Of a stretch of 34,134 bases of DNA, positions 109-7,094 are shown in pieces (the stretch's first letter is position 1; every line of letters begins with the position of its first letter). The notes beneath the pieces are model-generated. The model ran no database searches. It saw only the letters and a list, made by a program, of their open reading frames with translations, and was not told the DNA's origin. A program made the position numbers and the translations under genes. The stretch comes from Aneurinibacillus thermoaerophilus (GTDB lineage: Bacteria > Bacillota > Bacilli > Aneurinibacillales > Aneurinibacillaceae), in NCBI RefSeq assembly GCF_900099925.1, contig NZ_FNDE01000040.1, positions 1-34,134 on the forward strand, given 5' to 3'.

Positions 109-2145
109 TTACATAAGTCCGGCGATCATCATATCAATGACTTTAATACCGATAAAGGGCGCGACCATACCGCCAAGACCATAGACCAATAAGTTTCGAC
201 GCAGCAATCGGTTAGCATCCATCGCTTTATACTTCGCACCTTTCATCGCCACCGGAATCAGCAGGGGAATAATAATAGCGTTGAAGATGAGCGCCGACAG
301 GATTGCGGATTGCGGCGAGGTGAGTCGCATAATGTTGAGTGCCTGCAACTGCGGCAGAGCCACGATGAACAATGCTGGAATAATCGCGAAATATTTAGCG
401 ATATCGTTGGCAATGGAAAATGTTGTGAGCGAGCCGCGTGTAATCAGCAGTTGTTTTCCGATTGCGATCACGGAAAGAAGCTTTGTCGGATCGGAATCCA
501 GGTCAATCATATTCGCCGCTTCTTTCGCAGCCATCGTACCTGAATTCATGGCAAGACCAACATCAGCCTGGGCGAGAGCAGGAGCATCGTTTGTGCCATC
601 TCCGGTCATGGCAACCAGCTTGCCCTGTGCCTGTTCACGCTTGATCGCCTCGATTTTATCTTCCGGCTTGGCTTCAGCGATGAATTCATCTACCCCGGCT
701 TCCTGGGCAATCGTCGCAGCTGTGAGCGGGTTATCACCCGTACACATAACGGTTTTAATCCCCATCGCCCGCAGTTCAGCAAACCGTTCCTTTAAGCCTG
801 GTTTTACCGTATCTTTTAAATAGATAAGACCATAGATGCGATTGTTAATGGACACGGCAAGCGGTGTTCCGCCCGCCTTGGCGATTTGGTTTGCTTTTTC
901 TTCTAAATCATTCGGAATCGAGCCGTTGGCTGTTATAACAAACGCTTTAATCGCATCCACCGCCCCTTTGCGAATCTTTGTGCCGTTGCTTACGTTTAAG
1001 CCAGACATCCGGCTTTCTGCGGTAAATTCAATAATCTCTGCATCTGCATATTCATTTTCTGGCCACGTAACACCAAGCTTATTTGCTAACTCTACAACAG
1101 AACGTCCTTCCGGGGTTTCGTCTTTAACGGAGGATTGTAGAGCTGCCAGCGTTATATCTTTTTGCGATACACCGTCTACAGGGATAAACTCGGCTGCCAT
1201 ACGGTTACCAAAGGTAATCGTTCCTGTTTTATCAAGAATCATCGTATCAATATCGCCGGCTGCCTCGACCGCTTTGCCTGACATCGCCAGCACGTTAAAC
1301 TGGGTAACACGGTTCATTCCGGTGATTCCAATTGCGGAAAGCAGTCCGCCAATTGTTGTTGGAATCAGGCAAACTAGAAGTGCAATTAATGTTGCGGTAT
1401 CCAGCTTAATGTGCAGGTAGTTAGCCAGCGGTACAATCGTTATGATAACGAATAAGAAAATGAGCGTTAGTACGGTCAGGAGGGTAGTCAAAGCGATTTC
1501 GTTCGGTGTTTTTTGACGTGTTGCCCCTTCAACAAGAGAAATCATGCGGTCAAGGAATGACTCCCCCGGGTCAGTCGTTACTTTTACAATGATATAATCG
1601 GAGACTACGCGCGTCCCTCCGGTAACCGAAGAAAAGTCACCGCCTGCTTCTTTAATTACTGGGGCAGATTCTCCTGTAATGGCTGATTCATCAACGGAAG
1701 CGAGGCCTTCGATAATTTCACCGTCAGATGGAATAAGCTTCCCTGCGTCAACGCGGACAATATCACCCTTACGCAGCTGGGTGGATGATACCTCTTTAAT
1801 CGAACCGTCTTTTTGCAAGAGTTTAGCTATTGTATCAGATTTTGTTTTTCGCAACGTATTAGCCTGAGCCTTGCCGCGTCCTTCTGCAAGTGCCTCAGCA
1901 AAGTTGGCGAACAGGACGGTAAACAAAAGAGTCAGAAAGACCGTAACATTGTATCCACGGCTTACGGTGCTCGGACCGAATGCATCTGGCACCACACATA
2001 AAACAAAAGTAATGAATGTCCCGATTTCAACAATAAACATGACGGGATTTTTGATCATCATGACAGGATTTAATTTTTTAAAAGAGTCGATAACGGCTTG
2101 AGTGATCATTTCTTTGCTGAGCGTCTTTTTCTGCTTGATAGCCAT
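109..2145 (-). CDS. kdpB: Potassium-transporting P-type ATPase, ATP-binding subunit KdpB
   Basis: KdpB hydrolyses ATP to drive K+ uptake through KdpA in the KdpFABC membrane complex. The 678-residue protein is full length for the family. It carries the actuator motif TGES (157-160), the phosphorylation motif DKTGT (305-309, Asp305 phosphorylated) and the hinge motif GDGTND (515-520), with hydrophobic segments near 35-80, 218-275 and the C-terminus. The ATG has a strong AGGAGGATG ribosome binding site and lies 43 bp after kdpA. In Ser160 of TGES it retains the residue whose phosphorylation inhibits the E. coli pump. KdpC, needed for a working complex, is not in the window, because the terminal repeat starts 13 bp after the stop. 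No KdpDE sensor pair is visible. Confidence 0.97.
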
Positions 2146-2188: not shown

Positions 2189-3862
2189 TTACATCCCCAG
2201 ATGTTCGGCGATAGGGCCGAGCGCCAGAGCAGGGAAGAAAGTTAGCGCGCCAATGATCAGAATCATCATTAGCAGAATGACGGTAAACAGCGGCGTATCA
2301 GTACGGAAAGTTCCGACAGAGGCAGCGACTCTCGACTTGGTTGCCAGCGAGCCAGCGATAGCAAGCATAGCGATAATGGAGATGTAGCGGCCGAACAGCA
2401 TGACAAGTCCGATTGATATATTATAAAAATTTTTGTTTGCTGTAAGACCGGCAAAAGCAGACCCATTGTTCGCTGCGCCGGATGTAAAAGCGTATAGCAC
2501 TTCAGAAATACCGTGCGAACCCGGATTTAGGATAGATGCCATGGATTCTGGACGCAGGAAGGCAAGTGCAGTTGGCACCAGGATAAGAATCGGATGGATC
2601 AGAAGGGCAATGGAGGCCAGCTTCATCTCCTTTGCTTCAATTTTTCTTCCAAGAAATTCCGGCGTCCTACCAACCATTAAGCCGCAGATAAATACACTTA
2701 AAATGACATAGAGCAGGCCATTTAATAAACCGACACCTTTACCGCCGAATACGTTGTTGAGCATCATTTCTGCGAGCGGAACAAAACCACCTAACGGAGT
2801 CAATGAATCATGCATATTGTTAACCGAGCCGGTGGTAGCAGCTGTCGTTACCGCTGTAAATAATGCAGATTCAAAAAAGCCAAAGCGAACTTCTTTTCCT
2901 TCCATGTTGCCGTGAATGCCCATTGCATGTAACGCTGGCGTTCCTTTATATTCCTGAAAGAGTACAGTGCCGAGCATAATGAGGAAAATAACGCTCATCG
3001 CTGCAAAGACACTCCAGCCCTGACGTTTGTTTTTAATCATCACGCCAAATGCATAAATAAGCGAAGTGGGCAGAAGCAGCATAAATAAAATGTGCAGAAG
3101 GTTTGTCAGCGGTGTCGGGTTCTCAAACGGGTGCGCTGCGTTTGTTCCGAAATAACCACCGCCGTTTGTACCTAAGTGTTTGATTGATTCCAGAGAAGCT
3201 ACCGGCCCTCTGGTAATCACCTGATTTGCCCCTTCCAGCGTTGTCGCGGTCACTGCACCATGTAACGTCTGCGGTACGCCTTGAAAGACAAGAAAGAGCG
3301 CGGCGATGAAAGAAAGCGGTAGGAGTACACGGGTTATTAGACGGACAAGGTCAACATAGAAGTTACCCAGTTCATTTTTATTGCCAGATATACCGCGAAT
3401 AAAAGCGATAGCTACTGCAAATCCTGTTGCGCTAGATGTGAACATCGGAAATGTGATGGCCAGCATTTGGGAGAGATAGGACAGTCCGCTTTCTCCGCTG
3501 TAGGCCTGCCAGTTGGTATTCGTAATAAAAGATGCTGCTGTATTAAAAGCCAGTGCGCTTGGCATATTATCAATACCATCCGGATTGAACGGCAGATGTT
3601 TTTGGAGACGTAGTACAGCGTATATGAGTATCATCATAACGAAGTTAGAGAATAGCACAGCGGTCACATACTGTTTCGAGTCCATGGATTGTTCTTCATG
3701 CACACCCATTATCCGATAAAATAAACGTTCAACCGGCCCAAATACACGATCCAGTCTGGTTTTTTCATAGCTAAATACGTTAACCAGATAGCTTCCTACC
3801 GGTTTGATTAATAGTAATGCAATCAATAGAGTGACAGCTACTTGTATAATTCCTATACTCAT
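2189..3862 (-). CDS. kdpA: Potassium-transporting ATPase, K+-binding subunit KdpA
   Basis: KdpA is the channel-like subunit that selects and passes K+ in the KdpFABC pump. At 557 residues it is full length and strongly hydrophobic. It contains the four filter-loop signatures of the superfamily of K+ transporters: NTNWQAY (115-121), GTNGGGYFGTN (231-241), TTGSVNN (343-349) and ANNGSAFAGL (464-473). The start ATG has the site GAGGAGGAACGAAA just upstream. It sits 33 bp after kdpF and 43 bp before kdpB in a compact operon transcribed on the minus strand. Expression should be controlled by the c-di-AMP riboswitch at about 4465-4622. Confidence 0.97.
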   Translation of the reverse strand: MSIGIIQVAVTLLIALLLIKPVGSYLVNVFSYEKTRLDRVFGPVERLFYRIMGVHEEQSMDSKQYVTAVLFSNFVMMILIYAVLRLQKHLPFNPDGIDNMPSALAFNTAASFITNTNWQAYSGESGLSYLSQMLAITFPMFTSSATGFAVAIAFIRGISGNKNELGNFYVDLVRLITRVLLPLSFIAALFLVFQGVPQTLHGAVTATTLEGANQVITRGPVASLESIKHLGTNGGGYFGTNAAHPFENPTPLTNLLHILFMLLLPTSLIYAFGVMIKNKRQGWSVFAAMSVIFLIMLGTVLFQEYKGTPALHAMGIHGNMEGKEVRFGFFESALFTAVTTAATTGSVNNMHDSLTPLGGFVPLAEMMLNNVFGGKGVGLLNGLLYVILSVFICGLMVGRTPEFLGRKIEAKEMKLASIALLIHPILILVPTALAFLRPESMASILNPGSHGISEVLYAFTSGAANNGSAFAGLTANKNFYNISIGLVMLFGRYISIIAMLAIAGSLATKSRVAASVGTFRTDTPLFTVILLMMILIIGALTFFPALALGPIAEHLGM

Positions 3863-3988: not shown

Positions 3989-4075
3989 TTATGCTCGATC
4001 GCAAAACCAGGCAAATCCCCAAAAAATCAGGAATGATACTACAAATAGAGCGATAGTGATGACATCATGAAACAT
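3989..4075 (-). CDS. 28-residue membrane microprotein at the head of the kdp operon
   Basis: This ORF begins with MFHDVITIALFVV, continues as one hydrophobic helix (about residues 5-22) and ends in the polar tail CDRA. It has a good ribosome binding site (AAAGGAGGATGGAGGA) immediately before the ATG. Its TAA stop is the start of the kdpF Shine-Dalgarno sequence, which argues for real translation. I do not recognise a named family. Its size and single-helix design resemble KdpF, so it may be a second accessory peptide of the pump. A longer in-frame reading exists upstream, but it lacks a ribosome binding site and its extra sequence looks non-coding. Confidence 0.7.
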   Translation of the reverse strand: MFHDVITIALFVVSFLIFWGFAWFCDRA

Positions 4076-4443
4076 TCCTCCATCCTCCTTTTTTGGATAT
4101 CGCGTAGTTTTTTCTAAAAAAAAATAGACCGATGCATACCTCTTCTCCGTTTGAAACGCATGATGAAAGAAAACCGGGTGTAATAGACGCCAGTACACCA
4201 GAACTTTTTCATTCCATATAGAGGCAACGGATAAAAAAGTTCCCATGTAAGTCCGGTTTATCATGCGATTCACTGCTGGAGAAAAAGCACGATCGGTCTA
4301 CCTAATGCCTGCCCATCCCTTCTGGTTGGACTTGCATTCTGTCTCCCTGTTCTTTTTCTTGAAACAGTGTTATTTGATTTTTTCAAAAATAAAAAGACCT
4401 GCAAAATATAAGAGCGGCTCATTTTACTGGCGGTAAAGCACAA
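4076..4443 (-). other. Long kdp leader between riboswitch terminator and first gene
   Basis: About 370 nt of transcribed leader separate the riboswitch terminator from the 28-codon gene. I found no convincing coding sequence; the ORFs that cross it lack ribosome binding sites. It holds one perfect 9-bp stem (4201-4209 with 4234-4242, GAACTTTTT/AAAAAGTTC) with a 24-nt loop. A T-rich stretch follows a GGTCT near 4395. The function is unknown: a further attenuator, an RNA-stability element or a second promoter are all possible. Confidence 0.4.
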
Positions 4444-4472
4444 TAAAAAAAGACTGCTCAAATAGGCGGTCT
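4444..4472 (-). terminator. Intrinsic terminator of the kdp riboswitch
   Basis: On the minus strand AGACCGC, an 8-nt loop and GCAGTCT form a stem with one mismatch, followed by seven T residues. It lies directly after the 3' end of the riboswitch aptamer, the expected place for the expression platform. Its 5' arm overlaps the palindrome GGTCTTGAGACC, which could take part in an alternative antiterminator fold. Confidence 0.7.
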
Positions 4473-4622
4473 CAAGACCTCCTTCGCTTTAGCCGACGAA
4501 GTTAGCTGACGGGTAGGATGGCGAAAGAGCGATTCTCATCCCTCCTTACAAAAGTAAGGATTAACCCCAAATACGTGGGTCCTCCGCTTCCGGATGCTCC
4601 GGAATTAGGCCGAATTTGCAAT
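4465..4622 (-). ncRNA. ydaO/yuaA-type c-di-AMP riboswitch upstream of kdp
   Basis: Read on the minus strand, the segment has the ordered blocks of the ydaO class: GCCTAATTCCGG, GCGGAGGACCCA, TTTGGGGTTAATCC, a variable hairpin, then CCCGTCAGCTAACTTCGTCGG and a closing purine-rich arm. This class binds cyclic di-AMP and usually turns off potassium and osmolyte transport genes; kdp operons are known targets in Bacillus. The terminator at 4444-4472 follows at once, so binding is expected to stop transcription. Boundaries are approximate to about 10 nt. Confidence 0.88.
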
Positions 4623-4637
4623 TGTTTTATGTGAATC

Positions 4638-4666
4638 ATTATAAGAGGACTGAAACAAAAAACAAA
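4638..4666 (-). promoter_or_regulatory. Probable sigma-A promoter for the kdp transcript
   Basis: On the minus strand a perfect -10 box TATAAT (4643-4638) is preceded by TTGTTT at a 16-nt spacing. The predicted start, near 4631, lies just before the riboswitch aptamer, which is where the promoter should be. Confidence 0.65.
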
Positions 4667-4943
4667 ACCCAAAATTTAAACAAAAAATAGCTAAATTACG
4701 TTTTGTTAAAATAATAAAATGATAAAATCATTTATATTCTTACTATATCTCCTTATTTTTTACGATTTCTTCGTATTATCTGTTTTTTTTATGTTGAAGC
4801 AGGGCCATGCAAGAAAAATATTTTTATTTTATGCAGTGGAGCAAACAAAAGAAAAAGAGTAAAAAAAAGAGAATATAGAAGAAAAGTAAAAGTTTTTTTG
4901 AAAAAAATTTAGATTTTCTTCGCTTTATAAATGCTAATCCTTC
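4667..4943. other. AT-rich divergent intergenic region
   Basis: These roughly 280 bp separate two divergent, riboswitch-controlled transcription units. They are extremely A/T-rich, with several A and T tracts, including TTTTTTT-G-AAAAAAA at about 4892-4906. I see no ORF with a ribosome binding site and no clear operator. The tracts could curve the DNA or act as UP elements. Confidence 0.5.
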
Positions 4944-4995
4944 TTTACAAAAAGTGAACAGCACACATAATATAAATCCATCCCATTGATGTATT

Positions 4996-5025
4996 TTGAA
5001 ATGATGGCAATCGAAGTGCTGATAA
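4996..5025 (+). promoter_or_regulatory. Candidate promoter for the second riboswitch transcript
   Basis: TTGAAA (4996-5001) and TGATAA (5020-5025) are separated by 18 nt and would start transcription close to the aptamer 5' end. An alternative pair, TTTACA (4944-4949) and TAATAT (4968-4973), also 18 nt apart, would give a leader about 50 nt longer. I cannot choose between them from sequence alone. Confidence 0.4.
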
Positions 5026-5041
5026 AAAGTAAATATTCACA

Positions 5042-5207
5042 TCCAACCTGATCGCTGAGTCCCAAATAGGGAACGGGGGAACCAACCGCGGTATTCAAAA
5101 TTATAAGCCGCACGGGGTGAATCTTGAATAGCAAATTCAAGTAGGGCGACTCTCACGCCCGAATCCGTCAGCTAACCTCGTAAGCGTGTCGAGAGGAGGA
5201 ACGTTGT
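5042..5207 (+). ncRNA. ydaO/yuaA-type c-di-AMP riboswitch upstream of the DUF2294 gene
   Basis: The plus strand shows the class hallmarks in order: ATCGCTGAGTCCC, GAACGGGGGAACCAA, a hairpin, GCACGGGGTGAATCTTG, a second hairpin, CGCCCGAATCCGTCAGC, then TAACCTCGTAAGCG and a closing GAGAGGAGG arm. It is closer to the B. subtilis ydaO consensus than the kdp copy. A strong terminator follows at 5241-5278, so it is expected to be an OFF switch for the gene at 5319. Ends are approximate. Confidence 0.92.
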
Positions 5208-5240: not shown

Positions 5241-5278
5241 AAAACCGGAAGAAGACATCCTCTTCTTTCGGTTTTTTT
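5241..5278 (+). terminator. Intrinsic terminator of the second riboswitch
   Basis: AAAACCGGAAGAAGA and TCTTCTTTCGGTTTT pair around a 5-nt loop and run into seven T residues. The hairpin lies between the aptamer and the ribosome binding site of the DUF2294 gene, so it is the likely expression platform of the switch. Confidence 0.9.
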
Positions 5279-5699: not shown

Positions 5700-5747
5700 A
5701 AATTTTGAGACATTTTGCACCGAGAATAAAACAGGAAGGTGATCGCT

Positions 5748-7094
5748 TTGAACGTAAAAAATTTTATTGATGAGGGCGGCGCCATTATGAACCTCTTCCA
5801 TGAAGGGGTCGTTATCGTTGATCAGCGGGGAACAGTTTTATATGTAAATGAAGCATGCTCGCGAATCACAGGAATCCCAAAACAGGAGCTCATTGGGAAA
5901 TATGTAAAAGATGTCGTTTCTGATACAAATATTTTAAAAGTCTTACAGTCTGGTTACCCGGCGCTGGATATTCCAGCGCGTGCAGGAGACAGCGTCGTTA
6001 TTTCAAATATTGTGCCTATCTATGACGAAACGCAACAGCTTCTGGGAGCTGTATCGATCTTCCGCGATCTAACCGAAATATTGCGGCTGAATCACAGATT
6101 GTCAGAAGCGGAAAATACGATAAAAGATCTCCAGCAAAAGTTATCGCTTGCCGATTTAGCTGACGGGAATGATATGCTGATCGGAAATAGTCCTGCCATG
6201 AAAAAAATTGTGGAAATTTCTTTAAAAGCAGCGCGGGTTGACTCCACGATCATGATTGAAGGGGAAAGCGGAACCGGAAAAGAAATGCTGGCCCGTTTTA
6301 TTCATAACCATAGCGAGAGAGCGAAACAGCCATTCGTTGCTGTAAATTGTGCTTCCATTCCGGAAACTTTGTTGGAAAGTGAATTATTTGGCTATGAAGA
6401 GGGCGCTTTTTCCGGTGCAAGGCGGGGAGGAAAACAGGGAATGTTTGAACTCGCGGATGGGGGGACATTGTTTCTGGATGAATTGGAGGATTTAACTCCA
6501 TCTGTTCAGGCCAAGCTTCTTCGGGTGCTTCAATTTAAGGAATTAATTAGAGTAGGCGGAACGAAAACTAAAAAAGTAGATGTACGTATTATAGGAGCCA
6601 GCAATCAAAGCCTGGAAAAACTGGTCAAGGAAAAGAAATTTCGTGAGGATCTTTATTATCGTCTGAATGTCGTACGGGTAGAAATTCCTGCTTTGCGCGA
6701 AAGGAAAGAGGATATTCCGTTGTTTGTTCATCATATTTTAAAGAAGATGAGACATAAGTTGAACAAAACGGTTAAAAAGGTACATCCAGATGTTATCCGG
6801 CATTTGCTTGCTTACCCGTTTCCCGGGAATGTCCGCGAGCTGGAAAATATTCTGGAACTCGCCATTATTATGGATGACAATCAAGTCCTCGATTTGGCTG
6901 ATTTGCCAGAGCATATTGCTTCCGCGTCATCCGATTCTTCCCCAACCATTCAACTCCCTACTTTGAGAGAAATGGAAATGTCTTTAATAAAAGAGGCAGT
7001 AAGCAAATGCAAAAACAAAGCGGAAGCTGCCCAAATGTTAGGAATATCACGGGCTACTTTATACAGAAAAATGGAAGCATATGGTATCTCATGA
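5748..7094 (+). CDS. Sigma-54-dependent transcriptional activator (PAS-AAA+-Fis)
   Basis: This bacterial enhancer-binding protein opens sigma-54 RNA polymerase at -24/-12 promoters. From the TTG start the protein has 448 residues: a PAS sensor domain (about 11-105), a short coiled linker (110-135), the AAA+ domain with Walker A GESGTGKE (172-179), the sigma-54-contact loop GAFSGA (219-224) and Walker B TLFLDELED (240-248), and a C-terminal Fis-type helix-turn-helix ending NKAEAAQMLGISRATLYRKM. The loop has Ser where most members have Thr, a tolerated change. I chose TTG 5748 because AAGGTGA sits 6 nt upstream; GTG 5739 overlaps that site. It most likely controls the adjacent dehydrogenase operon, like BkdR or AcoR in B. 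subtilis. There is no receiver or GAF domain, so the PAS domain probably senses the inducer. Confidence 0.9.
   Translation: MNVKNFIDEGGAIMNLFHEGVVIVDQRGTVLYVNEACSRITGIPKQELIGKYVKDVVSDTNILKVLQSGYPALDIPARAGDSVVISNIVPIYDETQQLLGAVSIFRDLTEILRLNHRLSEAENTIKDLQQKLSLADLADGNDMLIGNSPAMKKIVEISLKAARVDSTIMIEGESGTGKEMLARFIHNHSERAKQPFVAVNCASIPETLLESELFGYEEGAFSGARRGGKQGMFELADGGTLFLDELEDLTPSVQAKLLRVLQFKELIRVGGTKTKKVDVRIIGASNQSLEKLVKEKKFREDLYYRLNVVRVEIPALRERKEDIPLFVHHILKKMRHKLNKTVKKVHPDVIRHLLAYPFPGNVRELENILELAIIMDDNQVLDLADLPEHIASASSDSSPTIQLPTLREMEMSLIKEAVSKCKNKAEAAQMLGISRATLYRKMEAYGIS

Follow-up and report, generated by a model that had tools for sequence, protein, structure and literature searches.

Divergent predicted c-di-AMP riboswitches of two subtypes between the kdp operon and an mpsC gene in Aneurinibacillus

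The gap between the kdp operon and an mpsC (DUF2294) gene of Aneurinibacillus thermoaerophilus contains two c-di-AMP aptamers placed back to back, each in the 5′ leader of the gene on its own strand, and the same pair recurs throughout the genus. We read the pair as divergent OFF switches and MpsC as a partner of potassium import by Kdp or KimA, and give this reading as a whole a probability of about 0.8. The two aptamers belong to different subtypes, and the MpsC proteins most similar to the one found here form a clade whose genes are linked to kdp, kimA and c-di-AMP riboswitches in several layouts across Bacilli.

The window, that is, the whole stretch of 34,134 nucleotides analysed, was searched with cmscan at the Rfam gathering thresholds, which returned only two matches, both to RF00379 and on opposite strands; each covers model positions 1-134 of 134, and the gathering score of this family is 38 bits (Table 1). 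The initial annotation had proposed two such elements, one facing left into kdp and the other facing right into a DUF2294 gene across a shared AT-rich gap. The high covariance scores of both elements (98.3 and 76.6 bits) bear this out, and the cmscan and Pfam matches agree with the proposed directions and targets: the left aptamer reads into a kdpF-like ORF, kdpA and kdpB, and the right one into a PF10057 gene, whose domain Pfam lists today as MpsC in place of DUF2294. The two are spaced 421 nt apart, and the intervening gap (4622-5042) has a GC content of 24%. In addition, the folds of the two leaders are more stable than those of shuffled sequences (z of -3.4 and -2.1, with 0 and 3 of 200 shuffles equalling them). 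Elsewhere in the genome, five further RF00379 sites are found, four of which face ORFs that by eye resemble secreted cell-wall proteins, and one a 117-aa ORF, with the aptamer 3 nt ahead of a possible start codon (L001 1631-1984).

Table 1. Features of the divergent locus, with positions counted from the first base of the window.
Feature	Position	Strand	Remarks
kdpB (P-type ATPase)	109..2145	-	contig begins at window base 1, remainder of the operon outside
kdpA	2189..3862	-	PF03814, 810.9 bits
kdpF-like ORF, 25 aa	3896..3973	-	TIGR02115, E 0.00016, under its cut-off
28-aa hydrophobic ORF	3989..4075	-	no family match above cut-off; conserved ahead of kdpF within the genus
Predicted terminator region of the kdp leader	4391..4473	-	GAGACC arm (4473-4468) and GGUCUU arm (4399-4394), two U runs; inferred from fold and alignment
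Predicted antiterminator hairpin	4465..4482	-	GGAGGUC (4482-4476) and GACCGCC (4471-4465); fold, alignment
Aptamer 3′ tail GCGAAGGAG	4479..4487	-	common to loop-tail helix and predicted antiterminator
Aptamer loop CUCUUUCGC	4521..4529	-	pairs with tail 4479-4487, the loop-tail helix of the folded aptamer
RF00379 (ydaO-class) c-di-AMP aptamer facing kdp	4476..4621	-	76.6 bits, E 2.6e-16; variant type, UUAAU core
Presumed -10 element of the kdp leader promoter, TATAAT	4638..4643	-	same hexamer at the same place in 7/7 genus loci; absent from promoter scan list
Sigma-A-type promoter-like site, TTTACA-16-CATAAT	4944..4971	+	ahead of right aptamer
RF00379 c-di-AMP aptamer facing MpsC	5043..5200	+	98.3 bits, E 2.4e-22; canonical type, UGAAU core
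Aptamer tail GAGAGGAGG	5191..5199	+	possible partners are loop CUCUC (5150-5154) or terminator UCCUCUU (5258-5264); read from sequence, pairs uncounted
Intrinsic terminator-like hairpin	5243..5278	+	13-bp stem, 5-nt loop, U run; from folds and alignments
MpsC/DUF2294 (PF10057) gene, 126 aa	5319..5699	+	Pfam 117.4 bits (cut-off 23)

One may argue that two common riboswitches merely flank one gap by coincidence and that MpsC is unrelated to potassium, since RF00379 is frequent in this genome (seven sites in 3.66 Mb) and none of the ORFs faced by the other five sites looks like a potassium importer by eye. However, the chance that sites form so close a divergent pair at random is about 0.002 per genome with seven sites by our own arithmetic, and two back-to-back RF00379 aptamers are present in all seven Aneurinibacillus genomes. 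The left aptamer reads into kdpA in all seven (the window and L049-L054). In six of them the right one reads into an mpsC gene with both on one contig; G001 is split here, with one contig stopping 116 nt past the right aptamer and mpsC located on another contig, 82 nt from its end. Beyond the genus, the layout is found in two other families. Of eight further genomes searched within the order, G013 has it, and the remaining seven have neither a divergent pair nor an MpsC of this clade; a scan with MpsC identified the other case in Ureibacillus galli, where the left target is kimA and not kdp. In one Aneurinibacillus genome, G005, a gene that looks hydrolase-like by eye lies in the gap, with both aptamers and the promoter-like sites kept (L053 6161-7255). 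Repeated sites also occur in family f15, where in three loci (L117, L125 and L128) two RF00379 sites follow one another on the strand of kdp, separated by small ORFs; in two of these loci an extra RF00379 site lies just downstream of mpsC.

The gene served by the right switch could also be sought further downstream. About 40 nt behind mpsC, on the same strand, lies a gene for a PAS/sigma-54 activator (5739-7094, +), followed by genes for E1, E2 and E3, and the switch might mainly serve this activator and thence the 2-oxoacid dehydrogenase genes, so that c-di-AMP would control carbon catabolism. We consider this quite unlikely, since other genes stand behind mpsC in all six other genomes of the genus, whereas the aptamer and mpsC are constant. 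The activator was accordingly rejected as a general target of this switch, although it may come under c-di-AMP by read-through as a species-specific addition. The target of the right switch in our reading is mpsC itself.

On the kdp side, RF00379 lies upstream of kdpF/kdpA and in the same direction, as in the kdp operon of the Bacillus thuringiensis type. In addition, KdpD is short in the genus: PF02702 is present in all seven genomes in open frames of 385-465 aa, and the four frames that were read end shortly past the N-terminal part, so that truncation is judged from length and end. KdpD of the genus (for example G000:C35:86086-86712, L136) ends in a stretch that looks USP-like by eye and leaves no space for a kinase part. 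A hydrophobic 28-aa ORF precedes kdpF or kdpA in all seven genus loci and is possibly an unannotated small protein of Kdp; several loci from families f23, f15 and f36 likewise have hydrophobic ORFs of 34-38 aa at this place.

The kdp leader contains pairings that are mutually exclusive by sequence. The 3′ tail of the aptamer takes part both in the loop-tail helix of the folded aptamer and in the predicted antiterminator, and the antiterminator GGAGGUC/GACCGCC occupies the arm that otherwise pairs with GGUCUU in the terminator. A bound, folded aptamer should thus release the terminator, which is the behavior of an OFF switch. Pairs of the loop-tail helix were counted in 29 of the 42 sequences of the variant subtype described below, with 13 near-duplicates excluded; 99.6% of the cells are paired, and three of nine pairs are changed on both sides, in 28 cells. 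None of 500 shuffles matches the percentage paired, the number of cells changed on both sides or the covariation score, and the other two of the five measures fall within the shuffles (number of two-sided pairs, 480/500; further pair types, 499/500). Sliding the partner lowers pairing to at most 66%. The covariation appears because the type found in MpsC operons was added to the importer-side set, and the 24 importer-side sequences alone have this helix without two-sided change. The covarying loop-tail helix supports the importer-side switching element. For the antiterminator of kdp, six of seven pairs are invariant in the 24 sequences and the seventh is an A.G or A.A mismatch, and such nearly invariant arms give no covariation signal. 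The loop-tail pairing potential is also visible by eye in the crystallised sequence as quoted in PMC5393176.

A sigma-70 pattern scan listed 2 sites against a mean of 3.7 in shuffled sequence, which is no excess, and a simple terminator scan listed none, though folds and alignments show terminator-like hairpins in the leaders. Hence weight is placed on conservation; for example, TTTACA is also found, at a similar place, ahead of the right aptamer in the six other genus loci and in L055 and L035.

The right leader seems to have diversified within the genus. In G004 and G006 (L052 7842-8010 and L054 7763-7932), a spacing of 4 and 6 nt separates the right aptamer from the start codon, and the would-be ribosome-binding site is the aptamer tail itself (GAGAGGAG and GGGGAGGA, respectively). 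This suggests translational control, so that the right switch of these two genomes probably acts on translation, and control seems, as judged from the leaders, to have moved from termination to translation within one genus.

Ligand, direction of response, promoters, terminators and mechanism are inferred by homology to the kdp switch of B. thuringiensis (PMC6488665). By this analogy, the segment 4465-5280 would contain two OFF switches for c-di-AMP that act independently of each other, on divergent transcripts and from separate promoters. When potassium and c-di-AMP are high, each aptamer would bind c-di-AMP and its 3′ tail would be locked in the loop-tail helix; with the tail locked, the antiterminator would be blocked, and transcription would stop ahead of kdpFAB on the left and of mpsC on the right. 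When potassium is low, c-di-AMP would drop, the tail would move into the antiterminator, and both units would be read. On the right side, the tail GAGAGGAGG, going by its sequence, would choose the loop or the terminator arm likewise. Going by the gene neighbourhood of its clade, MpsC would be a small soluble partner or regulator of potassium import, produced alongside the importer.

As the initial annotation had stated, the two aptamers differ clearly in sequence, and they do so as members of two types. In a tree of 62 aptamers, whose bootstraps were unsettled and whose long branches were flagged, 42 sequences, including the left-hand aptamers of the three lineages with the pair, lie beyond a 100/100 branch, and the right-hand aptamers of all three lineages lie on its opposite side. 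The 42 are hereafter called variant and the other 20 canonical. The motif GGGGUUAAU occurs in 42/42 variant versus 0/20 canonical sequences, and GGGGUG in 20/20 canonical ones; the core change from UGAAU to UUAAU is likewise found in 42/42 variant versus 0/20 canonical sequences. Moreover, the variant type has CGGAGGA in 40/42 and UCCUACCCG in 42/42, where the canonical type typically has CGGGGGA and GCCCGAAUCCG, and the canonical type typically has ACUUCGUCGGCU for ACCUCGUAAGCG. An inverted duplication of one switch would place two members of the same family on opposite strands of the same gap, as observed. Nevertheless, a recent event of this kind has next to no probability and is refuted by the tree and the core counts, since the two aptamers stand about two changes per column apart across the 100/100 branch, have different diagnostic cores, and each has its own counterpart in relatives. 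The pair is thus read as two separate switches.

The variant type is not confined to this genus. Searched as an exact pattern, its 3′ block is found in 55 of 398 Bacilli genomes and 18 of 145 genera, and the reversed pattern in none; the UUAAU core lies upstream of the block in all 30 places fetched. Among the seven RF00379 sites of the A. thermoaerophilus genome, the kdp-facing site alone matches this block. BLAST verified kimA and kdpA as variant targets, and by eye the block also precedes ORFs resembling aspartokinase, KtrB and a glycine-betaine ABC transporter (L219, L225, L226 and L232). Type and target are not strictly coupled: the site adjoining kdpA is canonical in three f15 genomes, some kimA genes are preceded by canonical sites, and the variant drives mpsC operons in families f36 and f14.

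Such divergence raises the question of whether the kdp-side variant has changed its ligand or no longer binds one. It differs at near-invariant places, namely UGAAU to UUAAU, the junction GAA to UA, and a 5-bp GGAUG/CAUCC helix, and in our own mapping the site 1 contacts listed in PMC7288161 fall at this helix. Nevertheless, the contacts that could be placed against that list (G41, G42, U43, A45, C82, C83, C88, C89 and A93) are all kept in the variant, in a mapping made by sequence motifs only and with a table that gives PDB 3MUV for ydaO, so that its labels may contain slips. In addition, kdp and kimA lie behind the variant, and the B. thuringiensis kdp riboswitch (+28 to +171), of similar aptamer length, whether or not of the variant type, responds to c-di-AMP according to PMC6488665. 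We therefore regard a change or loss of ligand as very unlikely and keep c-di-AMP as the presumed ligand of both switches. In the same mapping to PMC7288161, the G-to-U change of the variant is placed at position 44, flanked by contacts 43 and 45, and the helix adjoining site 1 is remodelled; together these make a different strength of c-di-AMP binding plausible for the variant. As the two aptamers are of different subtype, importer and partner may respond at different c-di-AMP levels, and perhaps one after the other, as the initial annotation had suggested.

The MpsC protein itself gives little indication of function. Its nearest named relatives in a protein scan are from Aneurinibacillus danicus (86% identity) and A. 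aneurinilyticus (85%), and a plasmid search yielded three distant matches of 39-43% identity. The structure model (pLDDT 91.7, pTM 0.83) has a small alpha/beta fold, for which Foldseek gave nothing at E<=0.001 (best 0.06), VIA-align gave Z of at most 7.1 (FtsK, TRAPP-like, lambda gpU), and a sequence search for a solved relative found none. As all structural matches are weak, no function is drawn from the fold, and the fold is not claimed to be new. A Pfam scan of 10 window ORFs showed no mpsA- or mpsB-like family.

The genomic context of MpsC is more telling. Defining the clade by similarity to the window protein at E<=1e-25, 44 MpsC genes were found in 43 of the 398 Bacilli genomes searched, and 43 of the 44 are near kdp, kimA and/or RF00379, in a set whose members are not independent, since a single genus of family f23 supplies many of them. 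Among control PF10057 loci of Bacilli outside the clade, 0 of 40 have RF00379, kdp or kimA nearby, where the controls are a selection of the listed places, mostly higher-scoring single-domain ones, and were viewed with about 4 kb on each side, against flanks of about 6.5 kb (upstream) and 2 kb (downstream) for the clade loci. cmscan, run on 35 of these 40 loci, found no RF00379 in any of them, and L198 and L205-L208 were scanned for it by nhmmer alone. Thirteen loci from the MpsC scan that belong to neither Aneurinibacillus nor Ureibacillus likewise show no link to RF00379, kdp or kimA. In a tree of 98 PF10057 rows, with few columns, unsettled bootstraps and flagged long branches, all 39 linked rows fall into one group of 45 with support 94/95; its six unlinked rows are the split contig, four convergent cases later resolved as linked, and G219. 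Against this linkage, and against a pair kept in 7/7 genomes of the genus and in two other families, coincidence is largely refuted and appears highly improbable, so the reading of a functional pair is retained.

The link takes several forms within the clade. Eight of the 44 genes belong to divergent pairs, counting G001. In 19, every RF00379 site in the 2.5 kb upstream of mpsC points away from it (three of them have two such sites, and L109 has kdpB fragments only), which argues that a switch on MpsC is not essential. There are four RF00379-mpsC-kimA operons and three RF00379-mpsC-kdpA operons, and two loci with RF00379 and mpsC (L099 and L134) have no importer in the stretch seen. In three others, a kdpB-like gene adjoins mpsC and RF00379 is further away, and four genes are convergent with an RF00379-led kdp operon, which became visible only with flanks of about 10 kb. 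The last, in G219 (L133), has no importer nearby, and its genome has no RF00379 among the matches listed. Distances vary as well among the 19: in L112 the RF00379 site is 2.5 kb off, behind a kdpB-like gene, and in L131 the nearest RF00379 faces another ORF, with kdpA 5.3 kb away.

Since MpsC is linked to two unrelated potassium importers in several layouts, our best guess from this context is that it has a role in potassium import or balance. We know of nothing about MpsC that would have predicted such a role. The initial annotation had suggested a local c-di-AMP regulon of ion transport; comparison strengthens this, in that MpsC genes of the clade keep company with kdp or kimA and with RF00379 across Bacilli and, in the three pair lineages, the importer side is variant and the MpsC side canonical, while ‘ion transport’ on the right side comes from the neighbourhood, MpsC being no known transporter. 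A bolder version, tentative and in our judgment somewhat doubtful, would be a two-threshold device kept by selection, in which the UUAAU variant faces the potassium importer, the canonical type faces a dedicated MpsC clade, and the two switch at different c-di-AMP levels, with the clade as a new class of partner or regulator serving both Kdp and KimA.

As far as these searches go, the locus shows a known RNA class in a new arrangement and with a new gene association. In the literature searched, from which most subscription papers were out of reach, there is no report of a divergent c-di-AMP riboswitch pair and no match for a c-di-AMP riboswitch with MpsC or for ydaO with DUF2294; for DUF2294 itself, the text accessible there gave nothing beyond a fungal secretome study. 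The hardly studied DUF2294 thereby becomes a testable candidate partner of Kdp and KimA. Moreover, the natural pairs put two aptamer subtypes side by side within a single gap, sharing both cell and copy number, so that the question of their set points is directly testable.

Several known systems are related to this locus. MpsC is linked to MpsAB in the MpsABC membrane-potential system; that system has the same Pfam domain, PF10057, but the neighbours of the domain here are potassium importer genes. Same-strand tandem c-di-AMP riboswitch doublets, of which 77 are given in PMC9481103, likewise place two c-di-AMP aptamers close together, but on one transcript, whereas the two described here are on separate, divergent transcripts; the word ‘divergent’ is absent from the main text of that paper. 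In Bacillus subtilis, kimA and ktrAB have single c-di-AMP switches, so that the same RNA family acts on potassium importers, with no MpsC neighbour named in the main text of PMC6488665. The closest system is the kdpFABC riboswitch of B. thuringiensis BMB171, a tested OFF switch, reported in the same paper along with riboswitch-controlled kdp operons in 12 species. The two leaders share an RF00379 aptamer just behind the promoter (about 144 nt there), a kdpF-first operon, a leader terminator (predicted here) and a truncated KdpD. The main text of that study does not mention MpsC, DUF2294, YbcI, ‘diverg’ or Aneurinibacillus. Riboswitch control of kdp is thus widened to Aneurinibacillus and further families of Bacilli and, unlike in B. 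thuringiensis BMB171, comes here with a second switch on a divergent transcript and with an MpsC gene.
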